Shown: in pieces, positions 23,753 to 37,597 of the stretch
Layout: each line of letters starts with the position of its first letter
Numbering within the stretch: the first letter of the stretch is position 1
Source: Halarchaeum rubridurum
Lineage (GTDB): Archaea > Halobacteriota > Halobacteria > Halobacteriales > Halobacteriaceae
Reading direction: 5' to 3'
DNA length: 64,000 nt
Assembly (NCBI RefSeq): GCF_014647115.1
Contig: NZ_BMOO01000001.1
Coordinates: 124,001 to 188,000, forward strand
Notes under the pieces: model-generated
What the model was told of the DNA's origin: nothing
The model's database searches: none
The model's input: only the letters and a program-made list of their open reading frames with translations
Translations under genes and position numbers: made by a program

Positions 23753-25225
23753 ATGGTTGACTGGACGGAGAAGTACCGCCCGACGACGCTCTCGGAGGTC
23801 CGCGGGAACGACTCGGCCCGCGACGACCTCAAGCAGTGGGCGGAGACGTGGGACGACCACCGCGAGGCCGTCATCGTCCACGGAAGCCCCGGCGTCGGCA
23901 AGACGTCCGCGGCGCACGCGCTCGCCAACGACATGGGGTGGGACGCGATCGAGCTGAACGCGAGCGACACGCGCACGAAGGACGTCATCGAGCGCGTCGC
24001 GGGCGAAGCCGCGAAATCCGGCACGCTCGGCGGCGGCACCGGCGGGCGCAAACTCGTCGTCATGGACGAGGCCGACAACATCCACGGGAACGCCGACCGG
24101 GGCGGCGCGCGCGCCGTCACGCGCCTCGTGAAGGAGGCCACCCAGCCGATGGTGCTCATCGCCAACGACTACTACGACATGTCGAACGCCCTCCGGAACG
24201 CCTGCCGGGAGATCGAGTTCCGCGACGTCGGCAAGCGCTCCATCGTCCCCGTCCTCCGCGACGTCTGTCGCCGAGAGGGCATCACGTACGAGGACGCAGC
24301 GCTCTCCGCGCTCGCCCAGAAGAACGCCGGCGACCTCCGTTCGGCGATCAACGACCTCCAGGCGCTCGCCGAGGAACACGAGGTGCTCACCGAGGACGAC
24401 ATCGTCACGGGCGAGCGCGACACCACCGAGGGCATCTTCGACTTCCTCGACGACGTCATCAAGGAGAAGGGCGCAGAGGAGTCGCTCTACGCCGCCTACG
24501 ACGTCGACGAGACGCCAGACGACCTCCTCAACTGGGTCGAGGACAACGTCCCGAAGGACTACTCGGGCGCGGAGTTGGCCGACGCCTACGGCTTCCTCGT
24601 GAACGCCGACAAGTGGCTCGGGCGCGTGCGCGCCACCCAGGACTACTCCTACTGGCGCTACGCGACCGACAACGTCGCCGCCGGCGTCGCCGCCGCCCGC
24701 CGAGAGCCCAAGGGCGGATGGACGCGCTACGGGCCGCCCTCCTACTGGTCGAAGCTCGGCCGGACGAAGGGCACCCGGAACACCCGCGACTACGTCGCCC
24801 GGAAGATAGCGGAGCAATCGGGCTGCTCGATGGCGACCGCCCGCCGCGAGGTCATGCCGTTCCTCGCCGCGATGACGCACCACTGCAAGCCCCGCGAACT
24901 CACCGTGGCGATGGCCGCCGCCTACGACCTGGAGGAAGAACACGTCGCCTTCGTCACCGGCAGCGGGAAGGACACGAACAAGGTGCAGGACATCGTCGCC
25001 GACGCCGAGGCGTCGAAGGCCGAAGCTGCCGTCGAACACTCCGGGGGCGCGTTCGCCGGTCAGGCCAGCGTCGAGGACGTCGACGCCAGCGAAAGCGGCG
25101 ACACGGGCGAGGACGAGGGCGACGACACCGACGAGGACGTCTTCGTCGACGACGAGGAAGCCGACACGAAGAGCGACGACGCCGAGGACGACGACATGCA
25201 GAGCGGCCTCGACGAGTTCTTCTAA
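23753..25225 (+). CDS. rfcL: Replication factor C large subunit (clamp loader)
   Basis: A 490-residue AAA+ protein with Walker A GSPGVGKT (residues 44-51), Walker B LVVMDEAD, sensor 1 MVLIANDYYD, and a sensor-2-containing DLRSAINDLQ region. A C-terminal collar domain follows, then a very acidic linker (about 440-480) and the PCNA-interacting motif QSGLDEFF at the extreme C-terminus. With the small RFC subunit it loads the PCNA sliding clamp at replication forks. The DEGDD-type linker is typical of salt-in haloarchaea. It is followed directly by a palindrome-rich repeat element. Confidence 0.97.
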   Translation: MVDWTEKYRPTTLSEVRGNDSARDDLKQWAETWDDHREAVIVHGSPGVGKTSAAHALANDMGWDAIELNASDTRTKDVIERVAGEAAKSGTLGGGTGGRKLVVMDEADNIHGNADRGGARAVTRLVKEATQPMVLIANDYYDMSNALRNACREIEFRDVGKRSIVPVLRDVCRREGITYEDAALSALAQKNAGDLRSAINDLQALAEEHEVLTEDDIVTGERDTTEGIFDFLDDVIKEKGAEESLYAAYDVDETPDDLLNWVEDNVPKDYSGAELADAYGFLVNADKWLGRVRATQDYSYWRYATDNVAAGVAAARREPKGGWTRYGPPSYWSKLGRTKGTRNTRDYVARKIAEQSGCSMATARREVMPFLAAMTHHCKPRELTVAMAAAYDLEEEHVAFVTGSGKDTNKVQDIVADAEASKAEAAVEHSGGAFAGQASVEDVDASESGDTGEDEGDDTDEDVFVDDEEADTKSDDAEDDDMQSGLDEFF

Positions 25226-25651
25226 ACGACCTTTTGCTGTGCGCGGGCTTCGCCCGCGCTGGCAAACGCTCGGCCATCGGGAGAAGCGTCGTTCCTTCCT
25301 GTGCAGCGAGGCGACTCCATCGTCTCGCACGCAAAGGCCGGTCGGACCACCGTCGGTGGTCCTCGGGCCTCGCGCTGACGCGCGAGTGAACCGCGCGATC
25401 CACGCGAGGGCTGCGGGCCCGAGTGTGGGTCAGTGAGAACGGTGTTCTCACTCGACTACCGGTCTCTTCGAGCCACTCGTCGCGCGGACGCTAGCCGCGG
25501 GGACCGTTACAGATAGCCCGCGTACCTACCGCGAGCGACCGGCAGGAGCGAGCGGACCAAGAGCCGACCAACGGGAGGCTCGCAGGCTTTTGGCCGACCT
25601 TTTGCAAGCGCAGGCGCGGCGAAGCCGCGCCAAGCGCTGCAAAAGGTCGTT
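25225..25651. repeat. Palindrome-rich intergenic element with 13-bp inverted ends
   Basis: The 460-base gap between rfcL and the next gene starts with AACGACCTTTTGC (25225-25237) and ends with its exact reverse complement at 25639-25651. Several palindromes lie inside (GCGCGGGC-TTC-GCCCGCGC near 25241; GGACCACCG-TCGGTGGTCC near 25344; GAGAACGGTGTTCTC near 25436). Its first 115 bases resemble the gap after the Lrp gene at 35642-35757. No coding potential was found. It could be a MITE-like non-autonomous element or a REP-type terminator island; there is no recognised transposase. Confidence 0.6.
25596..25648. repeat. Long inverted repeat (hairpin) at the right end of the element
   Basis: The arms GACCTTTTGCA (25596-25606) and TGCAAAAGGTC (25638-25648) pair perfectly, and the inner GCGCGGC-GAA-GCCGCGC extends the stem. 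A transcript would fold into a long hairpin about 40 bases before the next gene. Confidence 0.8.
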
Positions 25652-25688
25652 CCGAAACCCTAACCCCGACTCTCCCTGAATCGGTGGT

Positions 25689-27005
25689 ATGATCGGGATC
25701 GTCGGCGGCGGAATCGCGGGGTTGGCGGCGGCGCGGCGGTTACAGGCCGCGGGCCGCGAGGTGACGGTATTCGAGACGTCCGAGGAGGTCGGCGGGCTCG
25801 CGGCGACGTACGAGACGCGGGGGGACCGTCTGGAGAAGTTCTACCACCACCTCTCGGGGAGCGAGGAGACCATCGTCGAACTCATCGAGGAGCTCGGGCT
25901 CGGCGACGACCTGACGTGGCCCATCGGGAAGAACGCCTACTACATCGACGGGACGATTCACCCGATGGACAAACCCTGGGAGATTCTCGCGTTCCCCCAC
26001 TGGAACCTCTACGACACCTTCCGGCTGGGGATGCTCGTCCTCGACGTCGACGTTCGCGGGGGGGTCCCCTCGTTCGACTCCTACGAGGACCTGCGGGACT
26101 ACGAGGACGTCCCCGTGAAGGAGTTCTGCATCGAACACACGACGCGGAACGTCTACGAGACGTTCTTCGAACCCCTCCTGGAGGCGAAGTTCGGCGAGCG
26201 CGCGGAGGACGTCTCGGCGGCGTGGCTCCTCGGGCGCATCAAGTTCCGCGGGGAGCGCGACCTCCTGAAGGGCGAACCCCTCGGCTACCTGCGCGGGGGC
26301 TTCGGTCGTCTGCTCGACGAACTCCTGCGCGACGTCGGGACGGCGACGGTGGAGACGAACACGCGCGTCACCGACCTCTCGTTCGGCGAGGCCGGCGTGG
26401 AGGCGCTCACCGCCGAATCGGGGGACGGGACGACGGAGACGCACGACGTCGATTCGGTCGTCGTCGCGGCGATGCCGACCGTCCTCGAATCGCTCACGGG
26501 CTACGAGTGCGACATCGAGTTCCAGGGGACGGTCTGTTCCGTGGTCTCCATGTCGGAGTCGCTCACGGACACCTACTGGCTGAACGTCGCGGACGACGCT
26601 CCCTTCGGCGCGCTGATCGAGCACACGAACTTCGTCGACGAGTCGCACTACGGCGGCGAGCACCTCCTCTACGTCCCGAAGTACGTCCAGGGTCCCGAGG
26701 ACGAGGTCTGGCAGATGGACGACGACGAGGTCGCGGAGACGTGGCTCGCGGGCATCGAGTCGCTCTTCCCCGACTTCGAGCGCTCGCAGGTCAACTGGGT
26801 GAAGACGGCGCGCAACCCCCGGACGGCACCGATATACGAGCGGGGCTACCTCGACATGGTGGTGCCCTACGACCTCGCGGACGACGGCGCGCCGGGGGTC
26901 TACTACGCGGGGATGGCGAGCGAGGCGCAGTACCCCGAGCGGTCGCTGAACGGCGGTATCGTCGCGGGCTACGAGGTCGCGGACCGCATCACGGGCCGTC
27001 GCTAG
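25689..27005 (+). CDS. NAD(P)/FAD-dependent oxidoreductase, protoporphyrinogen-oxidase/amine-oxidase-like
   Basis: A 438-residue flavoprotein. The dinucleotide-binding motif GIVGGGIAGLAAARRL opens the protein, followed by VFETSEEVGGLAATYE, the FAD-adenosine contact. The C-terminal YYAGMASEAQYPERSLNGGIVAGYEVA is the second FAD segment. The central part, with HWNLYDTFRLG and EAKFGERAEDVSAAWLLGRIKFRG, matches the family of UDP-galactopyranose-mutase-like or amine-oxidase-like proteins often found with glycan or isoprenoid genes. The true substrate is unknown. It is convergent with the DUF6149 gene after 13 bases. Confidence 0.88.
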   Translation: MIGIVGGGIAGLAAARRLQAAGREVTVFETSEEVGGLAATYETRGDRLEKFYHHLSGSEETIVELIEELGLGDDLTWPIGKNAYYIDGTIHPMDKPWEILAFPHWNLYDTFRLGMLVLDVDVRGGVPSFDSYEDLRDYEDVPVKEFCIEHTTRNVYETFFEPLLEAKFGERAEDVSAAWLLGRIKFRGERDLLKGEPLGYLRGGFGRLLDELLRDVGTATVETNTRVTDLSFGEAGVEALTAESGDGTTETHDVDSVVVAAMPTVLESLTGYECDIEFQGTVCSVVSMSESLTDTYWLNVADDAPFGALIEHTNFVDESHYGGEHLLYVPKYVQGPEDEVWQMDDDEVAETWLAGIESLFPDFERSQVNWVKTARNPRTAPIYERGYLDMVVPYDLADDGAPGVYYAGMASEAQYPERSLNGGIVAGYEVADRITGRR

Positions 27006-27018
27006 CGGGCCTCGACGC

Positions 27019-27600
27019 TCAGCGCTCGGTCGCCCCGGGCGCGTCGTCGACGTCGACGTCCTCGGGGGTCGCTTGGCTGCCGCGTTTCGTCTCGCCGTCG
27101 CCGTCCTCGACGTAGACGTCGTCGGCGAACCCGGCTTCGGCGTGCGGGAAGTCGCCCTCCGCCAGGCGTTCGGGCGTCGCGGTGGCCTCCGGGAGCCCGC
27201 CCTCGGGGGCGAACTCGCCGAGGAGGTCCTCGACGGTGATGTCGTGGGCCTCGAAGAACTCCCGGTGGCGCTCGTAGTGGGCGTCCACCTCCTCCGGGGG
27301 GTACTCCATCATCTCCGCCCACCCGTGGTTGTAGAAGTCGAAGGTGGCGACGACGTGCGTCATCTCGCGGGCCGTCGCCTCGTCGTACCCCGCCTGCAGG
27401 GCGGTGAGGTACATCTCGGTGCTGGCGTCGAAGAACGCCTCCAGGTGGGGGATGCGCTCCTCCCGGTACTCCTCGTCGGCCCAGCCGCCGAAGACGGAGA
27501 CGTGGATGTCCACGAGTTTCTCGTGGACGAGGTCGCCGACGCCGGGCATCTCCAGGGCCTTCTGCGCCGCGAAATGCGTGACGTTCTGCCGCAGCTTCAT
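27019..27600 (-). CDS. DUF6149 family protein
   Basis: 193 residues from ATG 27600. The helical core MKLRQNVTHFAAQKALEMPGVGDLVHEKLVDIHVSVF and the motif THVVATFDFYNHGWAEMMEYP with HYERHREFFEAHDI are, as I recall, those of the haloarchaeal DUF6149 family. The C-terminal 60 residues are acidic and disordered. No function is known. It is divergent, by a 130-base gap, from the FAD oxidoreductase at 27731. An open upstream extension is probably spurious. Confidence 0.82.
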   Translation of the reverse strand: MKLRQNVTHFAAQKALEMPGVGDLVHEKLVDIHVSVFGGWADEEYREERIPHLEAFFDASTEMYLTALQAGYDEATAREMTHVVATFDFYNHGWAEMMEYPPEEVDAHYERHREFFEAHDITVEDLLGEFAPEGGLPEATATPERLAEGDFPHAEAGFADDVYVEDGDGETKRGSQATPEDVDVDDAPGATER

Positions 27601-27730
27601 ACGCGACGCGTTGGGGTGCGACCTACAAAGACCCACCCATCGCGGCCGTTCCGTGACACACGGCGGTAACGAGTGCCGGAATCGACAACGGATAGCAATC
27701 GACTTTAACCCGGAACGCACAGTGCCGGAC

Positions 27731-28975
27731 ATGAGCCAGTCGTTCGTGATCATCGGTGACGGGGTCGCGGGGAGTTCCGCGGCGGAAACGATCCGCGAGC
27801 GCGAGCCCGACGCCGACGTCACCATCGTTACAGACGAGGGCGAAGCCCTCTACAACCGTATCCTTATCAAGGAGTACGCCAAGGGGAAACTCCCCGAGGC
27901 ACCGATCTCCATCCACGACGAGTCGTGGTACGACGAGCGCGACATCGACCTGCGGCTCAACACGCTCGTCACGGGCGTCGACCCCGACGCCCACGTCGTC
28001 CACACCCACGAGGGCGACGACCTGGAGTACGACGCGCTGCTCGTCGCCACCGGCGGGACGCCGACGCAGCTCCCGGTCGAGAACAGCGACGCGGAGGGTA
28101 TCCACCACTTCTGGACGTTCGAGGACGCCCGCCACATCCGCGAGCACGCCGAGACGGCTGACTCCGGCGTCATCGTCGGTGCGGGGCTCCTCGGCATCGA
28201 CCTCGCGGCTATCTGTGCCGGCCAGGACATCGACGCGAAGTACCTGATGCGTGGCAACCGCTGGTGGCGGTACGCCCTCAGTGAGGACGGCGCGGAGATA
28301 ATCCACGACGCGCTCGCGGAGAAGGGCATCGAGCCGGTCTTCGAGTCCGGGGCGTCGGGCTTCGAGACGGACGACGACGGCCACGTCGTCGCCACGCTCG
28401 GCGGCGACGGCGAGCGCTACGACTCCGAGTTCGTCGGCATCGCCATCGGCCTCAACTTCAACGTCGAGTTCCTGCAGGACACGGACGTCGAGGTCGACGA
28501 CGGCGTCGTCGTCGACGAGTACATGCGCACCGACGCGGAGGACGTCTACGCGGCGGGCGACATCACGCGCTTCTACGACACGATCCGCGACACGCACGCG
28601 CAGAACGGGTCGTGGGGCTCCGCCAAACAGCAGGGTTCCGTCGCGGGCCACGCGATGACCGCGGACGACGTCGAGGACGACGTCGACGAGTTCCGCTGGG
28701 TCTCCTCCTACTCCATCACGCACTTCGACTTCCCGTTCCTCTCCTTTGGCTTCCCGACGGACGGCGACGAGCACGCGGAGCGGCGCTACTCGGAGACCGA
28801 GTGGCGGCGCCTCGCCTTCGAGGACGGGAAGCTCATCGGCGGCGTCCTCATCGGCGACCTCGCCCCGCAGTCGAAGTACAAACAGCTCATCCGCGCCGAG
28901 GCGGACGTCGCCGACCAGTCCGAGGTCCTCCTCCAGCAGAACTTCGAGCTCGAAGAGCTCGACGTCGACCTGTAA
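27731..28975 (+). CDS. FAD-dependent pyridine nucleotide-disulfide oxidoreductase-like protein
   Basis: 414 residues from ATG 27731. Two Rossmann folds are visible: FVIIGDGVAGSSAAETIRE (residues 5-23, FAD) and GVIVGAGLLGIDLAA (about 145-160, NAD(P)H). The DVYAAGDITRF segment near 280 is the flavin contact. The family includes rubredoxin/ferredoxin reductases and the N-terminal module of assimilatory nitrite reductases. No redox Cys pair is seen, so it is not a disulfide reductase. The long C-terminal part (SYSITHFDFPFLSFGFP) is specific to a haloarchaeal group. The electron partner is unknown. Confidence 0.9.
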   Translation: MSQSFVIIGDGVAGSSAAETIREREPDADVTIVTDEGEALYNRILIKEYAKGKLPEAPISIHDESWYDERDIDLRLNTLVTGVDPDAHVVHTHEGDDLEYDALLVATGGTPTQLPVENSDAEGIHHFWTFEDARHIREHAETADSGVIVGAGLLGIDLAAICAGQDIDAKYLMRGNRWWRYALSEDGAEIIHDALAEKGIEPVFESGASGFETDDDGHVVATLGGDGERYDSEFVGIAIGLNFNVEFLQDTDVEVDDGVVVDEYMRTDAEDVYAAGDITRFYDTIRDTHAQNGSWGSAKQQGSVAGHAMTADDVEDDVDEFRWVSSYSITHFDFPFLSFGFPTDGDEHAERRYSETEWRRLAFEDGKLIGGVLIGDLAPQSKYKQLIRAEADVADQSEVLLQQNFELEELDVDL

Positions 28976-29043
28976 CACCCGCCGGCAAAACCCGCTTCTT
29001 CCTCGTTCGCGTCCAGTTCAGACGCCATCGACCGCGCCGTCCG

Positions 29044-29355
29044 TCAGACGCCCTCGCTCGCGCCCTCGGCGGCGAGACCGAACCGACCGGCGGCGTAGCG
29101 CACCGTGAGACCGAGGCCGACGAAGAGGATTTCGAGCGTCACGCCGCCGATCTCCGTCCACTCGGGGGTAGCGATGCCGAGCATCGGGTCGCCGCCGGCG
29201 CTCGTGACCCAGAACACCAGCGTGGCGAGCGTGAAGAGCACGCTCGTCGCGCGCTCGTGCCGGTCGAACCCGGCGTCGAGCCAGATGTAGAGGGCGAACG
29301 CCGTCATGAGGACGGCGCCGGTGGTCGAGGTCACGAACAGCAGCGGCCACTCCAT
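29044..29355 (-). CDS. Small haloarchaeal membrane protein (three transmembrane helices)
   Basis: The 103-residue protein starts MEWPLLFVTSTTGAVLMTAFALYIWLDAGFDRHERATSVLF and has three hydrophobic helices (about 5-26, 38-53, 70-88). The order and charge pattern suggest a small membrane-sensor-like or structural protein, but I recognise no family with known function. It is convergent with the oxidoreductase before it and divergent from the gene at 29445. Confidence 0.75.
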   Translation of the reverse strand: MEWPLLFVTSTTGAVLMTAFALYIWLDAGFDRHERATSVLFTLATLVFWVTSAGGDPMLGIATPEWTEIGGVTLEILFVGLGLTVRYAAGRFGLAAEGASEGV

Positions 29356-29444
29356 ACCGGGTACAACGCCTCCGCCCGGGAAGGTGTTGTGGCCCCGTCG
29401 CCCCGACCGAAGCCGTTTTCCACGCGAGCGGCCCTTTCGTACCT

Positions 29445-29864
29445 ATGAGCATGAGCGGCGGGAGCACGGATATGACGCTCGCCTTCGAGCTGTCCGCGCT
29501 CAAGCGACTCGCCAAGCCCGGGACGGCGTTCGCCGACGCCCGACAGTGGACGGAGTACGTCGGCGTCGTGAGCGACGAACCGACGTACGTCGTTACGAAC
29601 TTCACGCGGAAGCGCCGCATCCGCCAGGACTTCTTCTCCGGCCCGAAGGACAAACGCGAGAGCCTGGAGAACGTCAAGAGCCAGTTCGAGACCGACCGAC
29701 ACGTCTTCGTCGGCGCGGACGAGGCGGACGAGGCGCTCGCCGAGGAGACGGGGTGGGAGTTCCTGCACGTCGAGGACGCCGCAGAGGCGGCCGGGTGGGA
29801 GCTCGGCGACCCCGAGGACGAGGAGGCCGCGAGCGGCGAACCCGAGCGCGACGACTGGCCGTAG
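29445..29864 (+). CDS. Conserved haloarchaeal protein, unknown function
   Basis: A 139-residue soluble protein with the recognisable conserved stretch MTLAFELSALKRLAKPGTAFADARQWTEYVGVVSDEPTYVVTNFTRKRRIRQDFFSGP, an alpha/beta domain, then a short acidic tail. The start may be either ATG 29445 or the later in-frame ATG codons at 29451 and 29472. Its stop is immediately adjacent to the ATG of the next gene (0-base gap), so the two are translationally linked. Confidence 0.8.
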   Translation: MSMSGGSTDMTLAFELSALKRLAKPGTAFADARQWTEYVGVVSDEPTYVVTNFTRKRRIRQDFFSGPKDKRESLENVKSQFETDRHVFVGADEADEALAEETGWEFLHVEDAAEAAGWELGDPEDEEAASGEPERDDWP

Positions 29865-30473
29865 ATGACCGACACGGGCGCGGGACCGCGCGTGCCGGAC
29901 GCCGGCGACGACGACGGTGGGGACGGCCGCGGGGGCGGAGGCGGGGGCGAGGCCGGCGCGGACGACGGGACCATCGCGCTCCCCTGCGGGGAGACGGTCC
30001 ACCGCTCGGCGTTCGACCTCGGGATGCGCGAGTACGAGTGCGCGTGCGGCGAGCGCCACGCGGTCGTGATGGACATGCATCCGCCATCGCGCTTCGTGCC
30101 GGAGGCCGTCGTCGACGTTCTGCGCGAGACGGTGAGCGTGGGGGACGACGACGCCTTCGAGGAGTTCGGTACCCCCCACCTGCTGGGGAGCGTGCTGGAG
30201 GAGTTCCCCGACGACGTGACGGTCGTGGACGCGACGGACGACGGGCGCGTCGGCTACGCGATGCTGTGGGTGACGGCCTTCGACGCGCGGACGCTCCACG
30301 AGCACGTCGTCGAACTCGTCGTCGAGCTGATGGAGCACGCGGTGAGCCACGCGCGCGACGACGCCGCGCAGGGCGACTTCGAAGAGCAGATGCTCGACTT
30401 CGACGTCGAGGCGTTCGTCGAGCGCTACCGGCGAGCGCGCGACTGGCAGGACGAGTACGACGCGCCCGCGTGA
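29865..30473 (+). CDS. DUF5815-like haloarchaeal protein
   Basis: 202 residues. A Gly/Asp-rich disordered N-terminus (about 1-36) leads into a compact domain with CGETVHRSAFDLGMREYECACGERHAVVMDMHPPSRFVPE (possible CxC metal site) and GYAMLWVTAFDARTLHEHVVELVVELMEHAVSHA. It resembles my memory of DUF5815, which is widespread in Halobacteria with unknown function. It directly follows the preceding gene without a gap. Between its stop and carB lies the carB operator region. Confidence 0.78.
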   Translation: MTDTGAGPRVPDAGDDDGGDGRGGGGGGEAGADDGTIALPCGETVHRSAFDLGMREYECACGERHAVVMDMHPPSRFVPEAVVDVLRETVSVGDDDAFEEFGTPHLLGSVLEEFPDDVTVVDATDDGRVGYAMLWVTAFDARTLHEHVVELVVELMEHAVSHARDDAAQGDFEEQMLDFDVEAFVERYRRARDWQDEYDAPA

Positions 30474-30540
30474 CGCGCCCGCGCGGGCGATTCTGACGCC
30501 GCGACAGCGACCTCACTCGCCATGGCCCCCCGGCGCCACC

Positions 30541-30565
30541 CCGGATTACGAAAATCGTAATCCGG
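30541..30565. promoter_or_regulatory. Operator-like palindrome upstream of carB
   Basis: A perfect inverted repeat with 11-base arms (CCGGATTACGA ... TCGTAATCCGG) and an AAA centre. It lies about 28 bases upstream of the carB TATA-like box. A second half-site-like GGTTACGAGATTT follows at 30564-30576. The core TTACGA-N3-TCGTAA also occurs, as TTACGAA-A-TTCGTAA, between carA and the Lrp gene, so both sites are probably bound by the same Lrp/AsnC regulator. Confidence 0.7.
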
Positions 30566-30592
30566 TTACGAGATTTGCACCGTTTCGTTTCG

Positions 30593-30599
30593 TTTATTA
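30593..30599 (+). promoter_or_regulatory. TATA-like box of carB
   Basis: TTTATTA is centred 27 bases upstream of about 30623, so the transcript would start only a few bases before the carB ATG at 30627. The preceding CGTTTCGTTTCG is a possible BRE region. The operator palindrome lies just upstream of this box, a position compatible with activation as well as repression. Confidence 0.6.
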
Positions 30600-30626
30600 C
30601 GATGTACGCACTCGTCTCCGATACAC

Positions 30627-33600
30627 ATGAGTGACGACCGGACCGTCCTCCTCATCGGAAGCGGCCCGATACAGATCGGCCAGGCGGCAGAGTTCGACTA
30701 CTCCGGCGCGCAGGCGTGTCGCGCACTGCAGGAGGAGGGTGCCCGAGTCGTCCTCGTCAACTCCAACCCCGCCACCATCATGACGGACCCCGAGATGGCG
30801 GACGAGGTCTACATCGAACCCATCACCACCGACGCCATCGCGGAGGTCATCGCCCAGGAGAACCCCGACGGCGTCATCGCGGGACTCGGTGGCCAGACGG
30901 GGCTGAACGTGACCGCCGAACTCGCCGAGGAGGGCGTCCTCGACGAGTATGACGTCGACATCATGGGCACGCCCCTCGACACCATCTACGCGACGGAGGA
31001 CCGCGAACTCTTCCGCCAGCGGATGCACGACCTCGGCCAGCCCGTCGCGCGCTCGACGACCATCAGCCTCGACGACGGCGAGAGCGTGCAAGCCCTGGAC
31101 GCGGAGGCCCTCGGCGAGCGCGTCGAGGACGCCGTCGAGGAGGTCGGCGGCCTCCCGGTCATCATGCGGACCACGTACACGCTCGGCGGCTCCGGGTCCG
31201 GCGTCGTCGAGGACATGGACGTCCTCAAGGAGCGCGTCCGCAAGGGCCTGCGCCTCTCCCGGAACGACGAGGTGCTCATCACCGAGTCCATCGCCGGCTG
31301 GGTCGAACTCGAGTACGAGGTGATGCGCGACGCCGGCGACTCCACCGTCATCATCTGTAACATGGAGAACATCGACCCGATGGGCATCCACACCGGGGAG
31401 TCCACGGTCGTGACGCCCTCGCAGGTCATCCCGGACGACGGCCACCAGGAGATGCGCGACGCGGCCCTGGAGGTCATCCGCGACCTCGGTATCGAGGGCG
31501 GCTGTAACATCCAGTTCGCGTGGCGCGACGACGGCACCCCCGGCGGCGAATACAGAGTCGTGGAGGTCAACCCGCGCGTCTCGCGCTCCTCCGCGCTCGC
31601 CTCGAAGGCGACCGGCTACCCCATCGCGCGCGTCACCGCGAAGGTCGCGCTCGGCAAGCGCCTCCACGAAATCACGAACGAAATCACGGGCGAGACGACG
31701 GCGGCGTTCGAGCCCGCCATCGACTACGTCGTCACGAAGGTGCCGCGCTGGCCCAAGGACAAGTTCGACAACGTCGATTTCACGCTCGGCACCGCGATGA
31801 AGAGCACGGGCGAGGCGATGGCAATCGGCCGGACCTTCGAGGAGTCCCTCCTGAAGGCGATGCGTTCGAGCGAGTACGAACCCGACGTCGACTGGGCGAG
31901 CCTCTCCGACGACGAGCTCGCCGAGACGTACGTCGCGCGCCCGAGCCCGGACCGCCCCTACGCCATCTTCGAGGCGTTCGACCGCGGCTTCACGGTCGAT
32001 GAGGTCGTCGAGCTGACGGGCATCGAGGAGTGGTACGTCGAGCGCTTCGCGCGGATCGCCGACGCCGCCGACGGCGCGAAGGACGGGTCGTTCACCGACG
32101 CCGCCATCGAGGGCTTCACCAACCACGAGATAACCGCGCTCGCCGGCGGCGCCTTCGACGACACGCACCCGTCGTGGCTGCCCTCGGACGTCGAGGCCGA
32201 GGCCTCGGCGGACGAACCCGAGGCGCGCCCCGACGGCGCGGGCATCACTATCGACGACGTCGAGGCCGACGTCCCGGGTCGCACCTACAAGCAGGTCGAC
32301 ACCTGCGCGGGCGAGTTCGAGGCCCAGACGCCGTACTACTACTCCTCCCGGAAGCCCGAGTGGTTCAGCGGGCCCTTCGAGGGCGAGTCCGCGGGCGGCG
32401 AACTCCGCGTCGACCACGACACCGACTCCGTCGTCGTCGTCGGCGGCGGCCCCATCCGCATCGGGCAGGGCGTCGAATTCGACTACTGTTCCGTCCACGC
32501 CGTGCGCGCCCTCCGCGAGGAGGGCATCGAGGCCCACGTCGTCAACAACAACCCCGAGACGGTCTCCACGGACTACGACACCAGTGACGGCCTCTTCTTC
32601 GAGCCCATCACCGCCGAGGAGGTCGCGGACGTCGTCGAGGCCACCGGCGCGGACGGCGTGATGGTCCAGTTCGGCGGTCAGACCTCGGTGAACGTCGCGG
32701 ACGAACTCGAGGCCGAGATCGACCGCCGCGGTCTCGATGCAAACATCCTCGGGACGAGCGTCGAGGCGATGGACTTAGCGGAGGACCGCGACCGCTTCAA
32801 CGTCCTGATGGACGACCTCGGCATCAGCCAGCCCGACGGTGGCACGGCGACGAGCGAGGCCGAGGCGCTCGACCTCGCGCACGACCACGGCTATCCCGTG
32901 CTCGTTCGCCCCTCCTACGTCCTCGGCGGGCGCGCGATGGAGGTCGTCCACAGCGACGCCGAGCTTGAGGAGTACATCGAAGAGGCCGTCCGGGTCGCCC
33001 CGGACAAACCCATCCTCGTCGATGAGTTCCTCGCGGACGCCGTCGAGCTCGACGTGGACGCCGTCTCGGACGGCGAGGACGTCCTCATCGGCGGCGTGAT
33101 GGAGCACGTCGAGGCCGCGGGCGTCCACAGCGGGGACTCCGCCTGCGTCATCCCGCCGCGGAACCTCGACGACGAGACGCTCGGTCGCGTCCGCGAGGTC
33201 GTCGAGGAGATTGCGCGCGCCCTCGAAACCGTCGGCCTCCTCAACGTCCAGCTCGCCGTGAAGGACGGCGAGGTCTACGTGCTGGAGGCGAACCCGCGCT
33301 CCTCGCGCACCGTCCCCTTCGTCTCGAAGGCGACCGGCGTCCCCATCGCCAAGCTCGCCGCGAAGGTCATGGCGGGCGACTCGCTCGCCGACCTCGGCGT
33401 CGAGGAGGGCGTCCCCGAGCAGTTCAGTGTCAAGGAGGTCGTCCTGCCGTTCGACCGCTTCGAGGGCGCGGACCCCCGCCTCGGCCCCGAGATGAAGTCC
33501 ACGGGCGAGGTCATGGGCACCGCCCGCACCTTCGGGAAGGCCTACGAGAAGGCCCAGTCCGCCGCCGGCAATCCGCTCCCCGAGGGCGGCGTCGCCGTCG

Positions 33601-33869
33601 TCGACTTCGACCTCGACGGATTCGCGGACTACTACGACGTCCGGGCGTTCGACGACGTCCCCGAGGCGATCCGGCAGAACGAACTCGACCTCTACGTCGG
33701 CGACGACGTCGACGCCCTCCAGACCGCCATCGAGGAGGAACTCCCCTACATCTCGACGGTCGCCAGCGCCGAGGCGAGCCTCGAAGCCCTCGCCCACCGC
33801 GACGAGGACCTCGACGTCGCCTCCGTCAGCTCGCGCCCCATCACGAACACGACGTGGGGCGGCGAGTGA
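30627..33869 (+). CDS. carB: Carbamoyl-phosphate synthase, large subunit
   Basis: 1080 residues, the full length of the family. It has two homologous halves, each with a carboxyphosphate/carbamoyl ATP-grasp domain: the first with IGSGPIQIGQAAEFDYSG (residues 8-25) and the second with VGGGPIRIGQGVEFDYCS near 609. Both halves carry the typical R-PSYVLGG / R-TTYTLGG loops and the oligomerisation domain between. The C-terminal MGS-like allosteric domain of bacterial enzymes is largely absent, as the protein ends soon after the second ATP-grasp domain. It makes carbamoyl phosphate for arginine and pyrimidine synthesis. carA lies convergent downstream, not upstream as in bacterial operons. Confidence 0.97.
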   Translation: MSDDRTVLLIGSGPIQIGQAAEFDYSGAQACRALQEEGARVVLVNSNPATIMTDPEMADEVYIEPITTDAIAEVIAQENPDGVIAGLGGQTGLNVTAELAEEGVLDEYDVDIMGTPLDTIYATEDRELFRQRMHDLGQPVARSTTISLDDGESVQALDAEALGERVEDAVEEVGGLPVIMRTTYTLGGSGSGVVEDMDVLKERVRKGLRLSRNDEVLITESIAGWVELEYEVMRDAGDSTVIICNMENIDPMGIHTGESTVVTPSQVIPDDGHQEMRDAALEVIRDLGIEGGCNIQFAWRDDGTPGGEYRVVEVNPRVSRSSALASKATGYPIARVTAKVALGKRLHEITNEITGETTAAFEPAIDYVVTKVPRWPKDKFDNVDFTLGTAMKSTGEAMAIGRTFEESLLKAMRSSEYEPDVDWASLSDDELAETYVARPSPDRPYAIFEAFDRGFTVDEVVELTGIEEWYVERFARIADAADGAKDGSFTDAAIEGFTNHEITALAGGAFDDTHPSWLPSDVEAEASADEPEARPDGAGITIDDVEADVPGRTYKQVDTCAGEFEAQTPYYYSSRKPEWFSGPFEGESAGGELRVDHDTDSVVVVGGGPIRIGQGVEFDYCSVHAVRALREEGIEAHVVNNNPETVSTDYDTSDGLFFEPITAEEVADVVEATGADGVMVQFGGQTSVNVADELEAEIDRRGLDANILGTSVEAMDLAEDRDRFNVLMDDLGISQPDGGTATSEAEALDLAHDHGYPVLVRPSYVLGGRAMEVVHSDAELEEYIEEAVRVAPDKPILVDEFLADAVELDVDAVSDGEDVLIGGVMEHVEAAGVHSGDSACVIPPRNLDDETLGRVREVVEEIARALETVGLLNVQLAVKDGEVYVLEANPRSSRTVPFVSKATGVPIAKLAAKVMAGDSLADLGVEEGVPEQFSVKEVVLPFDRFEGADPRLGPEMKSTGEVMGTARTFGKAYEKAQSAAGNPLPEGGVAVVDFDLDGFADYYDVRAFDDVPEAIRQNELDLYVGDDVDALQTAIEEELPYISTVASAEASLEALAHRDEDLDVASVSSRPITNTTWGGE

Positions 33870-33941
33870 CGCGCCGCGCGCGCTAACACCGGCTTCCGGA
33901 CTCCGGTTCGTCGACGCATCGACCATCCGACGCCACGACGC

Positions 33942-33946
33942 TTTTT
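33942..33946 (+). terminator. T5 run after carB
   Basis: CGACGCTTTTTCGCGG lies 72 bases after the carB stop, in the gap between the convergent carB and carA genes. A short GCG/CGC context surrounds it but no strong stem is present. Confidence 0.35.
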
Positions 33947-34083
33947 CGCGGTTCGTTTCGAGACGAGACACGGATACGTCGCCCGGAGCTACGGATAGCG
34001 CGAGCCGTCGCTCCGACGCGCGCGCGACGCGGGAGAGGTAGAACGAAGGCGGAGAAAAGACGGAACCGAGACAGAGCGTCCGC

Positions 34084-35136
34084 CTACGCCGTGACCTGCC
34101 GACTCTCGGCGAGTTCGAGGACCTCGTCGAAGAAGTCGAGGGTGTCGTGGGGACCGGGGTTCGCCTCGGGGTGGTACTGGCGGGTGAGGATGCCGTACTC
34201 CGCGCTGTCGAGGCCCTCGGGGGTGTCGTCGTTGACGTTCACCTGCGTGACGGTGAGGTCCCCGGGCTCGTCGACGGTGTAGCCGTGGTTCTGCGTCGTC
34301 ATGACGACCCGCCCGGTGTCGTGGTCGAGGACGGGCTGATTGACGCCGCGGTGGCCGAAGTCCATCTTCTCCGTCGTGCCGCCGAGGGCGCGCGCGACGA
34401 CCTGCTGGCCGAGACAGATGCCCGCGATGGGGAGTTCGTCGGTGAAGTGCTCGACGAGCGCCTGGGCGGCCTCGAAGTTCGCGGGGTCGCCCGGGCCGTT
34501 CGAGATGAAGAGGACGTCCGGGTCGAGCGCCTCGACCTCCTCGGGCATCGTGTCGTAGGGGAGGACGTGGACGTCGGCGTTCCGCGCGGTGAGCGAGTCG
34601 ACGATGGAGCCCTTCGCGCCGCAGTCGACGAGCGCGACGCGCGCGCCCGACCCCTCGTGGTGAATCGGCTCCTCGACGCTGACGTCCGCGCCGATGTCCG
34701 TGATGTCGCTCATGTGCGGACAGCTGTCGAGTTGGGCCTTCGCCTCCTCGGGCGAGGCGTCCGGGCCGGCGGAGACGCCGACCTTCATCGCGCCGCGGTC
34801 GCGGATGTCCGTCACGAGGTCGCGCGTGTCGACGTGGTCGACCGCGGGCACGCCCTCCGCCTCGAGCCACTCCGCGACGTCGTCCGTCATCTCGCGCGCG
34901 ACGACGGCGTAGGGGTGGACGCGGTCCGACTCGAAACGCTCCTCTCGGACGCCGTAGTTCCCGATGAGTGGGTAGGAGAAGGTGAGCACTTGGGCCTCGT
35001 AGGAGGGGTCGGTGAGACTCTCCTCGTACCCGGTGTAGGCGGTCGTGAACACGAGTTCGCCCTGGGCCGCACCCGGGGCGCGCGCACGCGCTTCGACTAC
35101 GTCCCCCGTTTCGAGGGCGAGGTAGGCGTCCGACAT
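34084..35136 (-). CDS. carA: Carbamoyl-phosphate synthase, small (glutamine amidotransferase) subunit
   Basis: A 350-residue protein with the CPSase small-chain N-terminal domain (MSDAYLALETGDVVEARA) and a class I glutamine amidotransferase domain. The nucleophile is Cys241 in GICLGQQ, and YHPEANPGPHD near 330 holds the catalytic His and Glu region. It hydrolyses glutamine and channels ammonia to CarB. The gene faces carB tail to tail and is divergent from the Lrp/AsnC regulator gene at 35234, with an operator palindrome between. The TATA-like CTTATA at about 35162-35169 predicts an almost leaderless start at ATG 35136. Confidence 0.97.
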   Translation of the reverse strand: MSDAYLALETGDVVEARARAPGAAQGELVFTTAYTGYEESLTDPSYEAQVLTFSYPLIGNYGVREERFESDRVHPYAVVAREMTDDVAEWLEAEGVPAVDHVDTRDLVTDIRDRGAMKVGVSAGPDASPEEAKAQLDSCPHMSDITDIGADVSVEEPIHHEGSGARVALVDCGAKGSIVDSLTARNADVHVLPYDTMPEEVEALDPDVLFISNGPGDPANFEAAQALVEHFTDELPIAGICLGQQVVARALGGTTEKMDFGHRGVNQPVLDHDTGRVVMTTQNHGYTVDEPGDLTVTQVNVNDDTPEGLDSAEYGILTRQYHPEANPGPHDTLDFFDEVLELAESRQVTA

Positions 35137-35187
35137 TACGAGAAACGAACGGACCTCCCGACTATAAGCCTTGCTTTCGTAGCGTCG

Positions 35188-35202
35188 TTACGAAATTCGT
35201 AA
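35188..35202. promoter_or_regulatory. Operator-like palindrome between carA and the Lrp gene
   Basis: TTACGAA-A-TTCGTAA is a perfect 15-base palindrome. It is about 20 bases upstream of the carA TATA-like box and overlaps the expected promoter of the regulator at 35234. Its core matches the palindrome in front of carB, so it may be the site for Lrp-type control of both car genes and autoregulation. Confidence 0.7.
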
Positions 35203-35233
35203 CTCCTTTCGCCCGCCGCGTCCACCCGTCCGT

Positions 35234-35644
35234 ATGGACGACCTCGACCGGCAGATTCTGGACGTCCTCCGACGCGACGCCAGGACTCCCTACACCGAGA
35301 TCGGCGACGAGCTCGGCGTCAGCGAGGGCACCATCCGCAACCGCGTCGAGCGCTTACAGGAGGACGGCATCATCGAGCGCTTCACCATCTCGACCAGCAC
35401 CGGCAACGTCAAGGCCATGATCGAAGTCGACGTCGCCGTCGACGTCGACACCCACGGCGTCGGCGACCAGATCGCCGAGTGGCCCGAGGTCGACTTCGTC
35501 TGGCAGGTCTCCGGCGAACTCGACATCGTCGTCGTCGTCGACGCCGACGACACCGGCCGCGTCAACGAACTCATCACCAAGACGCGCGAACTCGACGACG
35601 TCACCACCACCAAGACCCGCCTCATCCTCGACGAAACCCTGTAA
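35234..35644 (+). CDS. Lrp/AsnC-family transcriptional regulator
   Basis: A 136-residue protein with an AsnC-type HTH (LDRQILDVLRRDARTPYTEIGDELGVSEGTIRNRVERLQEDGIIERF, residues 4-49) and a C-terminal RAM domain (MIEVDVAVDVDTHGVGDQIAE, then VVVVDADDTGRVNELI). These proteins form octamers that read amino acids through the RAM domain. It is divergent from carA, with a shared palindromic operator in the gap, and the same motif sits before carB. That context suggests it senses a precursor or end product of arginine/pyrimidine metabolism, such as glutamine. The ligand is inferred. Confidence 0.92.
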   Translation: MDDLDRQILDVLRRDARTPYTEIGDELGVSEGTIRNRVERLQEDGIIERFTISTSTGNVKAMIEVDVAVDVDTHGVGDQIAEWPEVDFVWQVSGELDIVVVVDADDTGRVNELITKTRELDDVTTTKTRLILDETL

Positions 35645-35757
35645 ACCGACCATTTACTGCGCTCGCCTTCGGCTCGCTGGGAAACGCTCGGCTATCGGAA
35701 GAAGCTCCGCTTCTTCCTATGCAGCGAGGCGACTCCGTCGTCTCGCCCGCAGGGCGA
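35642..35757. repeat. Dispersed intergenic repeat, copy after the Lrp gene
   Basis: Starting at the stop codon of the Lrp gene, this stretch shares long identical segments with the start of the element after rfcL (25223-25340). Shared pieces include AAACGCTCGGC, GCAGCGAGGCGACTCC and TCGTCTCGC. It also has similar palindromes at equal spacing (GCGCTCGCC-TTCG-GCTCGC, GAAGAAGC-TCC-GCTTCTTC). Downstream to 35880 further inverted pairs follow (AGAACCGCTTCG..GGTTCT, GAGACGGCACAGCCGTCTC). The whole 364-base gap to the next gene carries no ORF. Both copies start immediately after a coding region. Confidence 0.7.
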
Positions 35758-36008
35758 GAGAACCGCTTCGTTCGGGTTCTTCGAACCGTCATCGGAGATC
35801 GGAGATTTCCGATCGGCGAACGAGACGGCACAGCCGTCTCGTTAACGCTCGCTCGCGGACGCTACCTCCGTGGTTCGTTTGGTCCATGTATGAACCTCGC
35901 AGTAGATTACCGCCCAGCTCCGGTGGTGAAATCGCGTCGCACGGGAGAACGTTCTACCGGACGTACGCGAAGTCATCATTTTGTGTCTTTAGCGAGGATA
36001 CACCGACT

Positions 36009-36311
36009 ATGGTCCCCTATATCGGCGACGTTCTGTTCAAGGAGCCACAAGGCCGGCGCAGCTCACTCGTCCAGTTTGGCACGTCGCTCTCCTTCTGCTG
36101 TCTACTCGTGTACGCTTGGAGTGTCGGCGAAGCTGGAGCCGTCGTCCCGTGGGTGCTGTTCTTTATCGTCGGAACTGCGCTGTCCGGAATTGCTGAATCG
36201 CTTCCGAAAACTCGACGACGGGCGGCTGGCCTACTCCGCCTCACAGCCATCTTCGTATTGACTTGTTTTCTGGCCGGTCTGTTCCTCGCTCCGGAGTACA
36301 TCGTTGGGTGA
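36009..36311 (+). CDS. Small membrane protein of lower GC content, unknown function
   Basis: 100 residues from ATG 36009. Three hydrophobic segments are evident: LVQFGTSLSFCCLLVYAWSVG, AVVPWVLFFIVGTALSGIAE and LLRLTAIFVLTCFLAGLFLAPEY. The start MVPYIGDVLFKEP is polar. Codon choice is visibly less GC-biased than neighbours, with runs such as ATCGTTGGGTGA and TTCTTTATC. The gene is flanked on both sides by palindrome-rich noncoding DNA. It may have been acquired with the surrounding repeats. Longer upstream starts, from 35886, read through repeat DNA and are less likely. Confidence 0.6.
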   Translation: MVPYIGDVLFKEPQGRRSSLVQFGTSLSFCCLLVYAWSVGEAGAVVPWVLFFIVGTALSGIAESLPKTRRRAAGLLRLTAIFVLTCFLAGLFLAPEYIVG

Positions 36312-36715
36312 TGGACGGTCGGTCTTCGCACTCGAAGTGGTGTGTCCGTATGAGGATACACTGGTTCCGTGAGTCACCCGGAGCTATCCCACGGAATCCG
36401 CCCTCGATAGCCAGCAGGCGGTTCTTGACGGGATGTGAATAGATTCGGTACAGTTCGACGGACCATTTCCCTATATCGAACGCCGGCGGTCGCGGTGCAG
36501 TCCGGCGTACGCGGCGCGGCGCGACGCGCCGCGTTTCACCGAGCGACGAAGTCACTCGGGATTTTTCACCCCTGCGAGACCCGTCGGGCCTCGCTGGTCC
36601 CACACTCGCTTCCTCGCGTGGACCATGTTTTTGCGGGGACGGGTGCGCGGAGCGCACCCGACCCGGAAAAAGATGGTTCGCTACGCTTTTCAGCCCCCAC
36701 ACGGTACGCCACGGC
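36312..36715. repeat. 404-base noncoding, palindrome-rich region before thrB
   Basis: No convincing gene was found. The palindrome GCGGCGCG-N6-CGCGCCGC occupies 36511-36532. GGGTGCGC-GGA-GCGCACCC occupies 36641-36659 and sits inside a larger imperfect inverted repeat (CCATGTTTTTGCGGGG at 36623-36638 against ACCCGGAAAAAGATGG at 36660-36675). The right end must contain the thrB promoter. A minus-strand open frame across 36320-36480 looks protein-like but has no clear start and is not called. Confidence 0.6.
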
Positions 36716-37597
36716 ATGCTTACGGTCCGTGCGCCCGCGACGAGTGCGAACCTCGGGAGCGGGTTCGACGTCTTCGGCGTCGCGCTCGACCGCCCGGCGG
36801 ACGTCGTCACGGTCGAACGGGCCGCGGAGACGACCATCGAGGTGTCGGGGGCGGGCGCGCAGTACATCCCGGAGGACCCGGCGAAGAACACGGCGGGCGT
36901 CGTCGCCCGCGAACTCGACGCGCCGGCGCACATCCGCATCGACAAGGGCGTCCGTCCCTCCTCGGGACTGGGGTCGAGCGCGGCGTCGGCGGCGGCGGCG
37001 GCGGTCGCGCTCGACGCGCTCTACGAGCGCGGCCACACGGGCGAGGAGCTCGTCCGCGTCGCCGCGGAGGGCGAGGCCGCGGTCTCGGGGGAGGCGCACG
37101 CGGACAACGTCGCGCCGTCGATACTCGGCGGTTTCACGGTCGTCCGCGACGACGGCGTGCTCAGCATCGACGCGGACGTCCCCCTCGTGGCGTGCCTCCC
37201 GGAGATCGTGGTGTCGACGCGCGACGCGCGCGGCGTCGTTCCGCGCTCCGCAGAGATGGACGACGTCGTCCACACGGTCGGAAGCGCGGCGACGCTCACC
37301 GCGGGGATGCAGCGCGACGACCCGTCGCTCGTCGGTCGCGGGATGGACGAGCGCGTCGTGACGCCGGCGCGCGCGGCGCTCATCGACGGTTACGACGCGG
37401 TCTGCGAGGCCGCGGCGGACGCGGGCGCGACGGGCGTGACGGTCAGCGGCGCGGGACCGGCGCTCATCGCGGCGTGCTATCCGGCGCGTCAGCGCGCCGT
37501 CGCGTCGGCGATGGTGGAGGCCTTCGCGGACGCGGGCGTCGACGCGCGCGCCTATCGCTCGTCGGTCGGGGACGGCGCGGAAATCGTCGAGCGCTAG
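36716..37597 (+). CDS. thrB: Homoserine kinase (GHMP kinase family)
   Basis: A 293-residue GHMP kinase with N-terminal MLTVRAPATSANLGSGFDVFGVALDRP, ATP-binding loop RPSSGLGSSAASAAAA (about residues 80-95), and the third motif VTVSGAGPALIA near the C-terminus. The NLGSGFD segment and overall length favour homoserine kinase over mevalonate kinase. It phosphorylates homoserine on the route to threonine. It is monocistronic by spacing, convergent with leuB, and preceded by palindromic DNA. Confidence 0.93.
   Translation: MLTVRAPATSANLGSGFDVFGVALDRPADVVTVERAAETTIEVSGAGAQYIPEDPAKNTAGVVARELDAPAHIRIDKGVRPSSGLGSSAASAAAAAVALDALYERGHTGEELVRVAAEGEAAVSGEAHADNVAPSILGGFTVVRDDGVLSIDADVPLVACLPEIVVSTRDARGVVPRSAEMDDVVHTVGSAATLTAGMQRDDPSLVGRGMDERVVTPARAALIDGYDAVCEAAADAGATGVTVSGAGPALIAACYPARQRAVASAMVEAFADAGVDARAYRSSVGDGAEIVER

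Follow-up and report, generated by a model that had tools for sequence, protein, structure and literature searches.

The repeat described here, called the boundary unit below, has its closest kind in the bacterial REP/BIME sequences (GTAG and CGTC classes), which the excerpt of PMC3733652 describes as many dispersed extragenic palindromes of 20–40 bp, standing singly or in inverted pairs. The closest haloarchaeal kind is formed by the PATEs of Haloquadratum walsbyi; these and the SMR elements of that species are given in the excerpt of PMC3119063 as transposase-free, with near-terminal palindromes and no target duplication, the PATEs also having strain-specific insertions, IS605-like termini and no terminal inverted repeats.

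Like REP/BIME sequences, boundary units are palindromes scattered outside genes, some standing singly and some as inverted pairs, but a unit has four hairpins in ~165 nt, is archaeal, is packed to a stop codon, RNase P end or promoter and has no RAYT beside it; no GTAG or CGTC tag was seen by eye at the unit ends in the alignment. With the PATEs the units share near-terminal palindromes, the lack of a target duplication and a length too short for a transposase. Their sites, however, are kept between species, no unit lies beside the Y1 genes that were fetched, and the composite described below has exact 13-bp inverted ends, a single unit having merely imperfect ones (AACGACC and GGTTCGTT; alignment, by eye). 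As regards MITE-type terminal repeats, each of these 13-bp ends is an outer arm of a different unit. The unit departs from the PATE class, and likewise from the GTAG/CGTC-tagged REP class, in a defining feature that was tested, and it is filed among the dispersed extragenic palindromic repeats.

Bidirectional terminator hairpins between convergent genes have a T-rich left arm and an A-rich right arm, and boundary units share these arms and mostly this setting; boundary units differ from such terminators in general by forming one conserved four-hairpin family with long linkers, which also occurs beside promoters and RNase P RNA. ERIC sequences and integron attC sites are imperfect palindromes of ~100–150 bp directly behind stop codons, whereas the hosts of boundary units are chromosomal housekeeping genes. 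No description of the boundary-unit family was found among the titles and abstracts listed by literature searches, in agreement with the initial annotation, which knew no named family for the sequence.

Composition of the stretch

The window, that is, the whole stretch of 64,000 nucleotides of Halarchaeum rubridurum DNA that was analysed, holds three boundary-unit copies in total (A, A' and B). Positions 25225–25651 had initially been annotated as a single dispersed palindromic element with inverted ends; the parts are as follows.

23759–25225, plus strand: rfcL, replication factor C large subunit (named by eye from the translation), host of unit A
25225–25506, plus strand: unit A, four hairpins and two extra hairpin modules, its first base being also the final one of the rfcL stop (covariance model, blastn, alignment)
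25225–25276, plus strand: hp1 of unit A, with right arm GGCAAACGCTCGGCC and, in the left arm, a T4 tract 6 nt past the stop (sequence; sister-unit folding)
25225–25237, plus strand: left copy of the 13-bp inverted repeat, outer hp1 arm of unit A (sequence)
25469–25651, minus strand: unit A', inverted, without the hp3/hp4 tail of the H. nitratireducens (G002) copy (covariance model)
25595–25651, minus strand: hp1 of unit A', facing the promoter of the next gene
25639–25651, minus strand: right copy of the 13-bp inverted repeat, outer hp1 arm of unit A' (sequence)
25652–25688, plus strand: 37-nt spacer from unit A' to the next start codon, with TATA-like CCTAACCC (by eye)
25689–27005, plus strand: gene starting MIGIVGGG, FAD-dependent oxidoreductase-like (by eye), whose promoter adjoins unit A'
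35234–35644, plus strand: lrp-type regulator, host of unit B
35645–35885, plus strand: unit B behind lrp, with hp1, a substituted hp2 module and an extra hp4 module (blastn, alignment, covariance model)
25469–35885, no strand: block inverted relative to three sister Halarchaeum genomes, with units A' and B inverted at its borders

The exact 13-bp inverted repeat is present, AACGACCTTTTGC at 25225–25237 and its complement at 25639–25651, and base 25225 doubles as the final A of the rfcL stop codon. The nested palindromes are genuine, single units folding with z = -5.2 to -6.0 against dinucleotide shuffles. A copy after lrp was confirmed by blastn (the initial ~110 bases again at 35644–35751, 82 % identity), and both copies start at a stop codon, as had been proposed, TAA in either case. 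What ends at 25651 is not one element but a second unit in inverted orientation: the 427-bp stretch is two half-units, tail to tail. The proposal of a dispersed non-coding family is supported, and that of a single mobile element with inverted ends is not, two independent units having been joined by inversion in this species. One mobile element with 13-bp ends was rejected, its halves being apart or absent in three sister species.

Origin of the composite

In G002 and G003 gene 36746 is followed by the block from FAD to lrp and then by rfcL, lrp and rfcL being convergent; the order in G001 is consistent as far as its contigs extend. The FAD..lrp block (about 10 kb) is inverted in the window, so that rfcL adjoins FAD and lrp adjoins gene 36746. 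Unit A (rfcL, C4:39168–39344) and unit A' (FAD promoter, C4:28646–28817) lie about 10 kb apart in G002, whereas G001 has A' and none behind rfcL, and G003 has neither. Window A' shares 96 % identity with the G002 copy over 133 bp of hp1–hp2, promoter included, its tail being lost; the 25652–25688 spacer is conserved at the same gene in G001 and G002. This comparison of sequences shows that a ~10-kb inversion between unit-bearing borders made both the 'element' of the window and its 13-bp ends: it placed A and A' tail to tail, and the exact ends are therefore the two hp1 outer arms.

Because A' and B stand inverted at the two block borders, recombination between them is suggested. The tail of unit B is 93 % identical to the G002 A' tail over 45 nt and hardly less, 90 %, identical to the G002 B tail over 48 nt; this hybrid-tail signal is weak and no more than suggestive of an inversion brought about by homologous recombination between units.

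Architecture and distribution of the family

A boundary unit is ~165–230 nt long and has four hairpins joined by conserved linkers. The first, hp1, reads A-CGACC-TTTTGC ... GCAAAA-GCTCG-GCCAAAAGC; after it come hp2 and hp3 (CTCGCG..CGCGAG). The linker TGAACCG leads on to hp4, which contains an inner hairpin, and the linker GGACGCTAGC joins hp4 to a tail near GTGGTTCGTT, a sequence lying near 35870–35880 in unit B. Some copies carry extra hairpin modules, and the same module reappears in different copies of the alignment. Own-genome blastn gave many partial places spread over several modules, which, read in the sense direction, form one repeating unit.

The initial annotation had allowed for these being the only two copies genome-wide. 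This is not so: the first 116 bases as blastn query gave 12 places in the own genome (E <= 0.0125), and a covariance model built from 7 own-genome units gave 27 matches (E <= 2e-6); the window's two copies are nothing special. Three other Halarchaeum genomes had 34, 34 and 21 matches (E <= 0.001), and tens of matches were seen in many relatives; at least one match was found in 36 of 59 genomes (E <= 0.01) and, across the class, in 71 of 145 (E <= 1e-4), the own genome included in both. With 19 to 150 candidates scored per genome, these figures are minimum values, and the E-values are rough, so lone weak matches outside the family may be chance. As a control, 107 kb of sequence surrounding RNase P and transposase genes yielded 3 strong matches, all directly 3' of RNase P RNA, and 3 weak ones (E 0.02–0.08).

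A known RNA family was rejected, there being no Rfam match to units at gathering score: none was found in positions 25000–36200 of the window, and 40 further loci gave tRNA, RNase P, one CRISPR repeat and nothing else.

A second hairpin type, ACCATCTTTTTCC...GGAAAAAGATGGT, occurs at about 36625–36745 of the window and at L189 1793, L187 1303, L210, L215 and L222; it, too, is packed at stops or promoters, and its conservation extends across species. Small low-GC membrane-protein ORFs were noted on the side to which units turn their tails (window 36009–36311; L041, L204, L039, L193, L045, L086, L164). Homologous ORFs of this type lie at non-orthologous loci (e.g., window 36009, L041, L204), three of the small ORFs are flanked by inverted units, and nine compared with Pfam matched no family at its cut-off. 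The arrangement unit/ORF/inverted unit was found at three places (G000 L045, G001 L086, G002 lrp–rfcL); a cargo cassette of this form was rejected, since the nine ORFs gave no Pfam match and many units have no such ORF.

Placement of the units

From 123 model matches in four Halarchaeum genomes (G000–G003), 102 units were kept; 8 duplicates (overlapping loci) and 13 matches judged by hand (contig-end cuts, opposite-strand shadows, weak fragments) were left out, and the match at L039 3120–3345 was extended by hand. The stop search required a coding score > 25; for 24 of the 102 units none was present within 300 nt. In 62 of the 102 units the CC of hp1 is placed 0–7 nt past a sense stop, 48 of these at 3–5 nt, which bears out the position directly behind genes that had been noted for the two copies. 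Of the 79 units that follow a sense gene and also have a gene on their downstream side, 61 lie 0–7 nt from the stop, against 4.7 expected by uniform placement in free space and a maximum of 13 in 20,000 runs of simulated placement; the inner end is equally near the next gene in just one of the 79. Of the 61 anchored units with a downstream gene, 40 stand between convergent genes. Outside the genus, 15 of 26 loci begin <=3 nt from a stop, the strands of L108–L113 being assigned from the motif by guess. Only 2 of the 62 called genes of the window have a unit behind them.

Stop codons are not the only edges used. In 3 of 24 genomes units start 2–3 nt past the Rfam end of RNase P RNA; by eye, an hp1-like hairpin stands on the 3' side of this RNA in G000 and G010, and a single T/A-armed palindrome in several other genomes. 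In 19 units hp1 faces a divergent gene; in 13 of them its distance to the coding segment is 28–57 nt, which puts it just beyond a TATA-like box (box by eye). Among the remaining six, three are behind tRNA-Val and one behind RNase P RNA. The rule is that hp1 abuts a functional edge (stop codon, structural-RNA 3' end or outer core-promoter edge) and that the tail floats.

The stop is TAA in 33 of the 62 unit-bearing genes (G000–G003) and in 7 of the 62 window genes; the AACGACC unit end may complete the stop codon. An insertion target behind TAA/TAG as the cause of the stop anchoring was rejected, since the promoter and RNase P units have no such edge triplet (by eye).

Units stand directly behind sequences resembling H/ACA guide RNAs (ACA + NNN, by eye) at L163, L194, L185, L090 and L106, and Rfam gave no family at gathering score for the H/ACA-like sequences ahead of units. 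At L224 1465–1660 (G003) the unit starts 24 nt past a CRISPR repeat match. Behind tRNA-Val in three Halarchaeum genomes and tRNA-Lys in G010 comes an insert of about 100–150 bp (L192 1242–1480, L068 1670–1925, L216, L099), which in L192, L068 and L099 ends with a second copy of the tRNA 3' end, a unit following directly; these duplicated 3' ends are possibly old attachment sites.

Pairing of the stems

Paired cells make up 90.1 % of the alignment, against 70.3 % in shuffled and 35–43 % in slid controls, and compensatory changes on both sides occur in every one of the 52 modelled pairs; the fitting of the alignment to the model works in favour of both figures. This very strong covariation, the sense orientation of units directly behind genes and a G.U excess in helices 2–4 are what a structured 3' UTR RNA element, selected as RNA and acting as an mRNA stabiliser or sRNA source, would give. 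A genuine RNA should, however, tolerate G.U far more than A.C. The variable pairs of RNase P RNA in 24 related genomes behave in this way (47 G.U to 7 A.C, own count), whereas in helices 5–8 of the unit G.T to A.C is 58:51 (Fisher p = 1.3e-5 against RNase P RNA) and in the outer ten pairs of hp1 it is 18:25; helices 2–3 (35:9) and helix 4 (32:13) have an excess of G.T. Some copies, moreover, point away from promoters and have no upstream gene to transcribe them, and on this balance an RNA element is unlikely. The pattern of G.T and A.C argues that what maintains the stems is selection on both strands, a process at the level of the DNA, or template-switch correction; part of the signal remains RNA-like, the excess in helices 2–4 being compatible with selection on RNA.

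Shared sites and exchange of sequence

Of 68 units behind genes, 58 are at genes that are also followed by one in one or more of the other Halarchaeum genomes, and 23 of 33 gene clusters with a unit are common to at least two of these genomes; the hosts include TBP, TFS, aRF1, ArgRS, ValRS, thermosome, SdhA, HisG, PdxS and SUI1 (translations by eye). Nineteen own-genome gene ends were located in the three sister genomes, and 29 such sites outside the anchored set were read: some had variant or decayed units, and others, among them the rfcL ends of G001 and G003 and the lrp end of G003, were empty. Empty orthologous gene ends thus exist, and sites are mostly common to sister species. The unit is not essential, since many genes and some orthologs have none.

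The best-matching copy stands at the orthologous site for 17 of 67 units; the other 50 match better elsewhere. Shared sites with better matches elsewhere imply a process like concerted evolution, in which a site persists and exchange or replacement renews the sequence at it. Among the 12 closest within-genome pairs all but one differ by at least 13 %; the exception is a G002 pair with 96 % identity over 148 nt. The spread of units is real, given the empty orthologous ends and this pair.

These data bear on a non-autonomous transposable element that prefers gene ends, either a MITE or a PATE moved by an IS200/IS605-type Y1 transposase. Such an element would be dispersed and patchy, with presence or absence varying at orthologous stops of sister species, and would account for the 96 % pair, for near-end hairpins like those in the PATE excerpt (PMC3119063) and for the TAA excess, as though AACGACC completed the stop. 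The common sites and the divergence of 11 of the 12 closest pairs speak against it. No target-site duplication was seen either, the flanks TTCTTCTA and CCGAAACC having no direct repeat (by eye, one element). A Y1/RAYT partner was rejected because Y1_Tnp is absent from two unit-rich genomes, G002 (34 units) and G008 (38 units). None of the 8 fetched Y1 loci (of 15 matches) had a unit within 1.5 kb. A transposable element is an unlikely explanation, and the transposon-like reading first given to the stretch finds no support.

The units might also be neutral junk, that is, palindromes kept by template-switch (quasi-palindrome) correction and gene conversion and tolerated outside functional sequence. 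The small preference for G.T in several helices, the homogenisation across loci and the orthologs without units would all follow; the close fit of hp1 to its edge against a floating inner end (61 and 1 of 79) and the shared sites would be left unaccounted for, so this explanation is judged quite unlikely.

Proposed two-way termination

The reading preferred here, with a probability of roughly 0.52, is a REP/BIME-like boundary repeat that works as a bidirectional terminator; its structure and placement are observed, and its function is inferred from them. Transcripts leaving the gene would be ended by the T4 tract of the hp1 left arm, which lies a few nt beyond the functional edge, and T tracts on the opposite strand (TTTTGGC...GCTTTTGCC) would stop transcripts coming from outside; the unit would thus act as an insulator or as a terminator in both directions. 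The paired stems, with their weak G-U preference, would be maintained by selection on both strands or by hairpin correction at the DNA level. Copies would exchange sequence among themselves and also recombine; inversion of the FAD..lrp block, presumably through its border units, joined A to A' and so produced the 'element' with 13-bp inverted ends.

Runs of at least four T occur in 44 of 62 hp1 left arms and runs of at least four A in 52 of 62 right arms, so each strand has a T tract near the functional edge. For Haloferax volcanii the excerpt of PMC7237163 gives in vivo termination of 95 % of transcripts at a T5C tract and of 59 % at one tested hairpin; the T4 tract of the unit is shorter than this T5C. 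Two-way termination would explain the packing at stop codons, RNase P RNA and promoters, and the convergent gene pairs fit too. The suggestion that the sequences serve as terminators is compatible with these findings. As excerpted, a 2026 survey reports that in archaea inverted repeats are over-represented past stop codons and peak at +50 to +80 (PMC13155455), and the same holds for inverted repeats downstream of stops in E. coli, for terminators (PMC6060812); a repeat family like the boundary unit is not described in either excerpt.

A terminator alone needs no hp2–hp4, and the conserved linkers of these hairpins are not accounted for by termination. A further version of the reading is one ancestral four-hairpin DNA module reused as a two-way insulator at mRNA ends, RNase P RNA and outer promoter edges; its position would be inherited, gene conversion would homogenise its sequence, its stems would be maintained as DNA, and its copies would serve as inversion joints. 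This version is rather unlikely. If it were true, inversions at units would reshuffle transcription units without harm.

Significance

If the bidirectional terminator is the right reading, boundary units would be a built-in punctuation mark of haloarchaea, also in genera as well studied as Halobacterium, with dozens of conserved sites per genome, and would allow a direct test of how archaeal transcription stops at compact gene borders. They would likewise test whether covariation must mean RNA; in this case the mismatch pattern suggests DNA or both strands. Finally, an inversion can yield a convincing 'transposon with inverted ends'.
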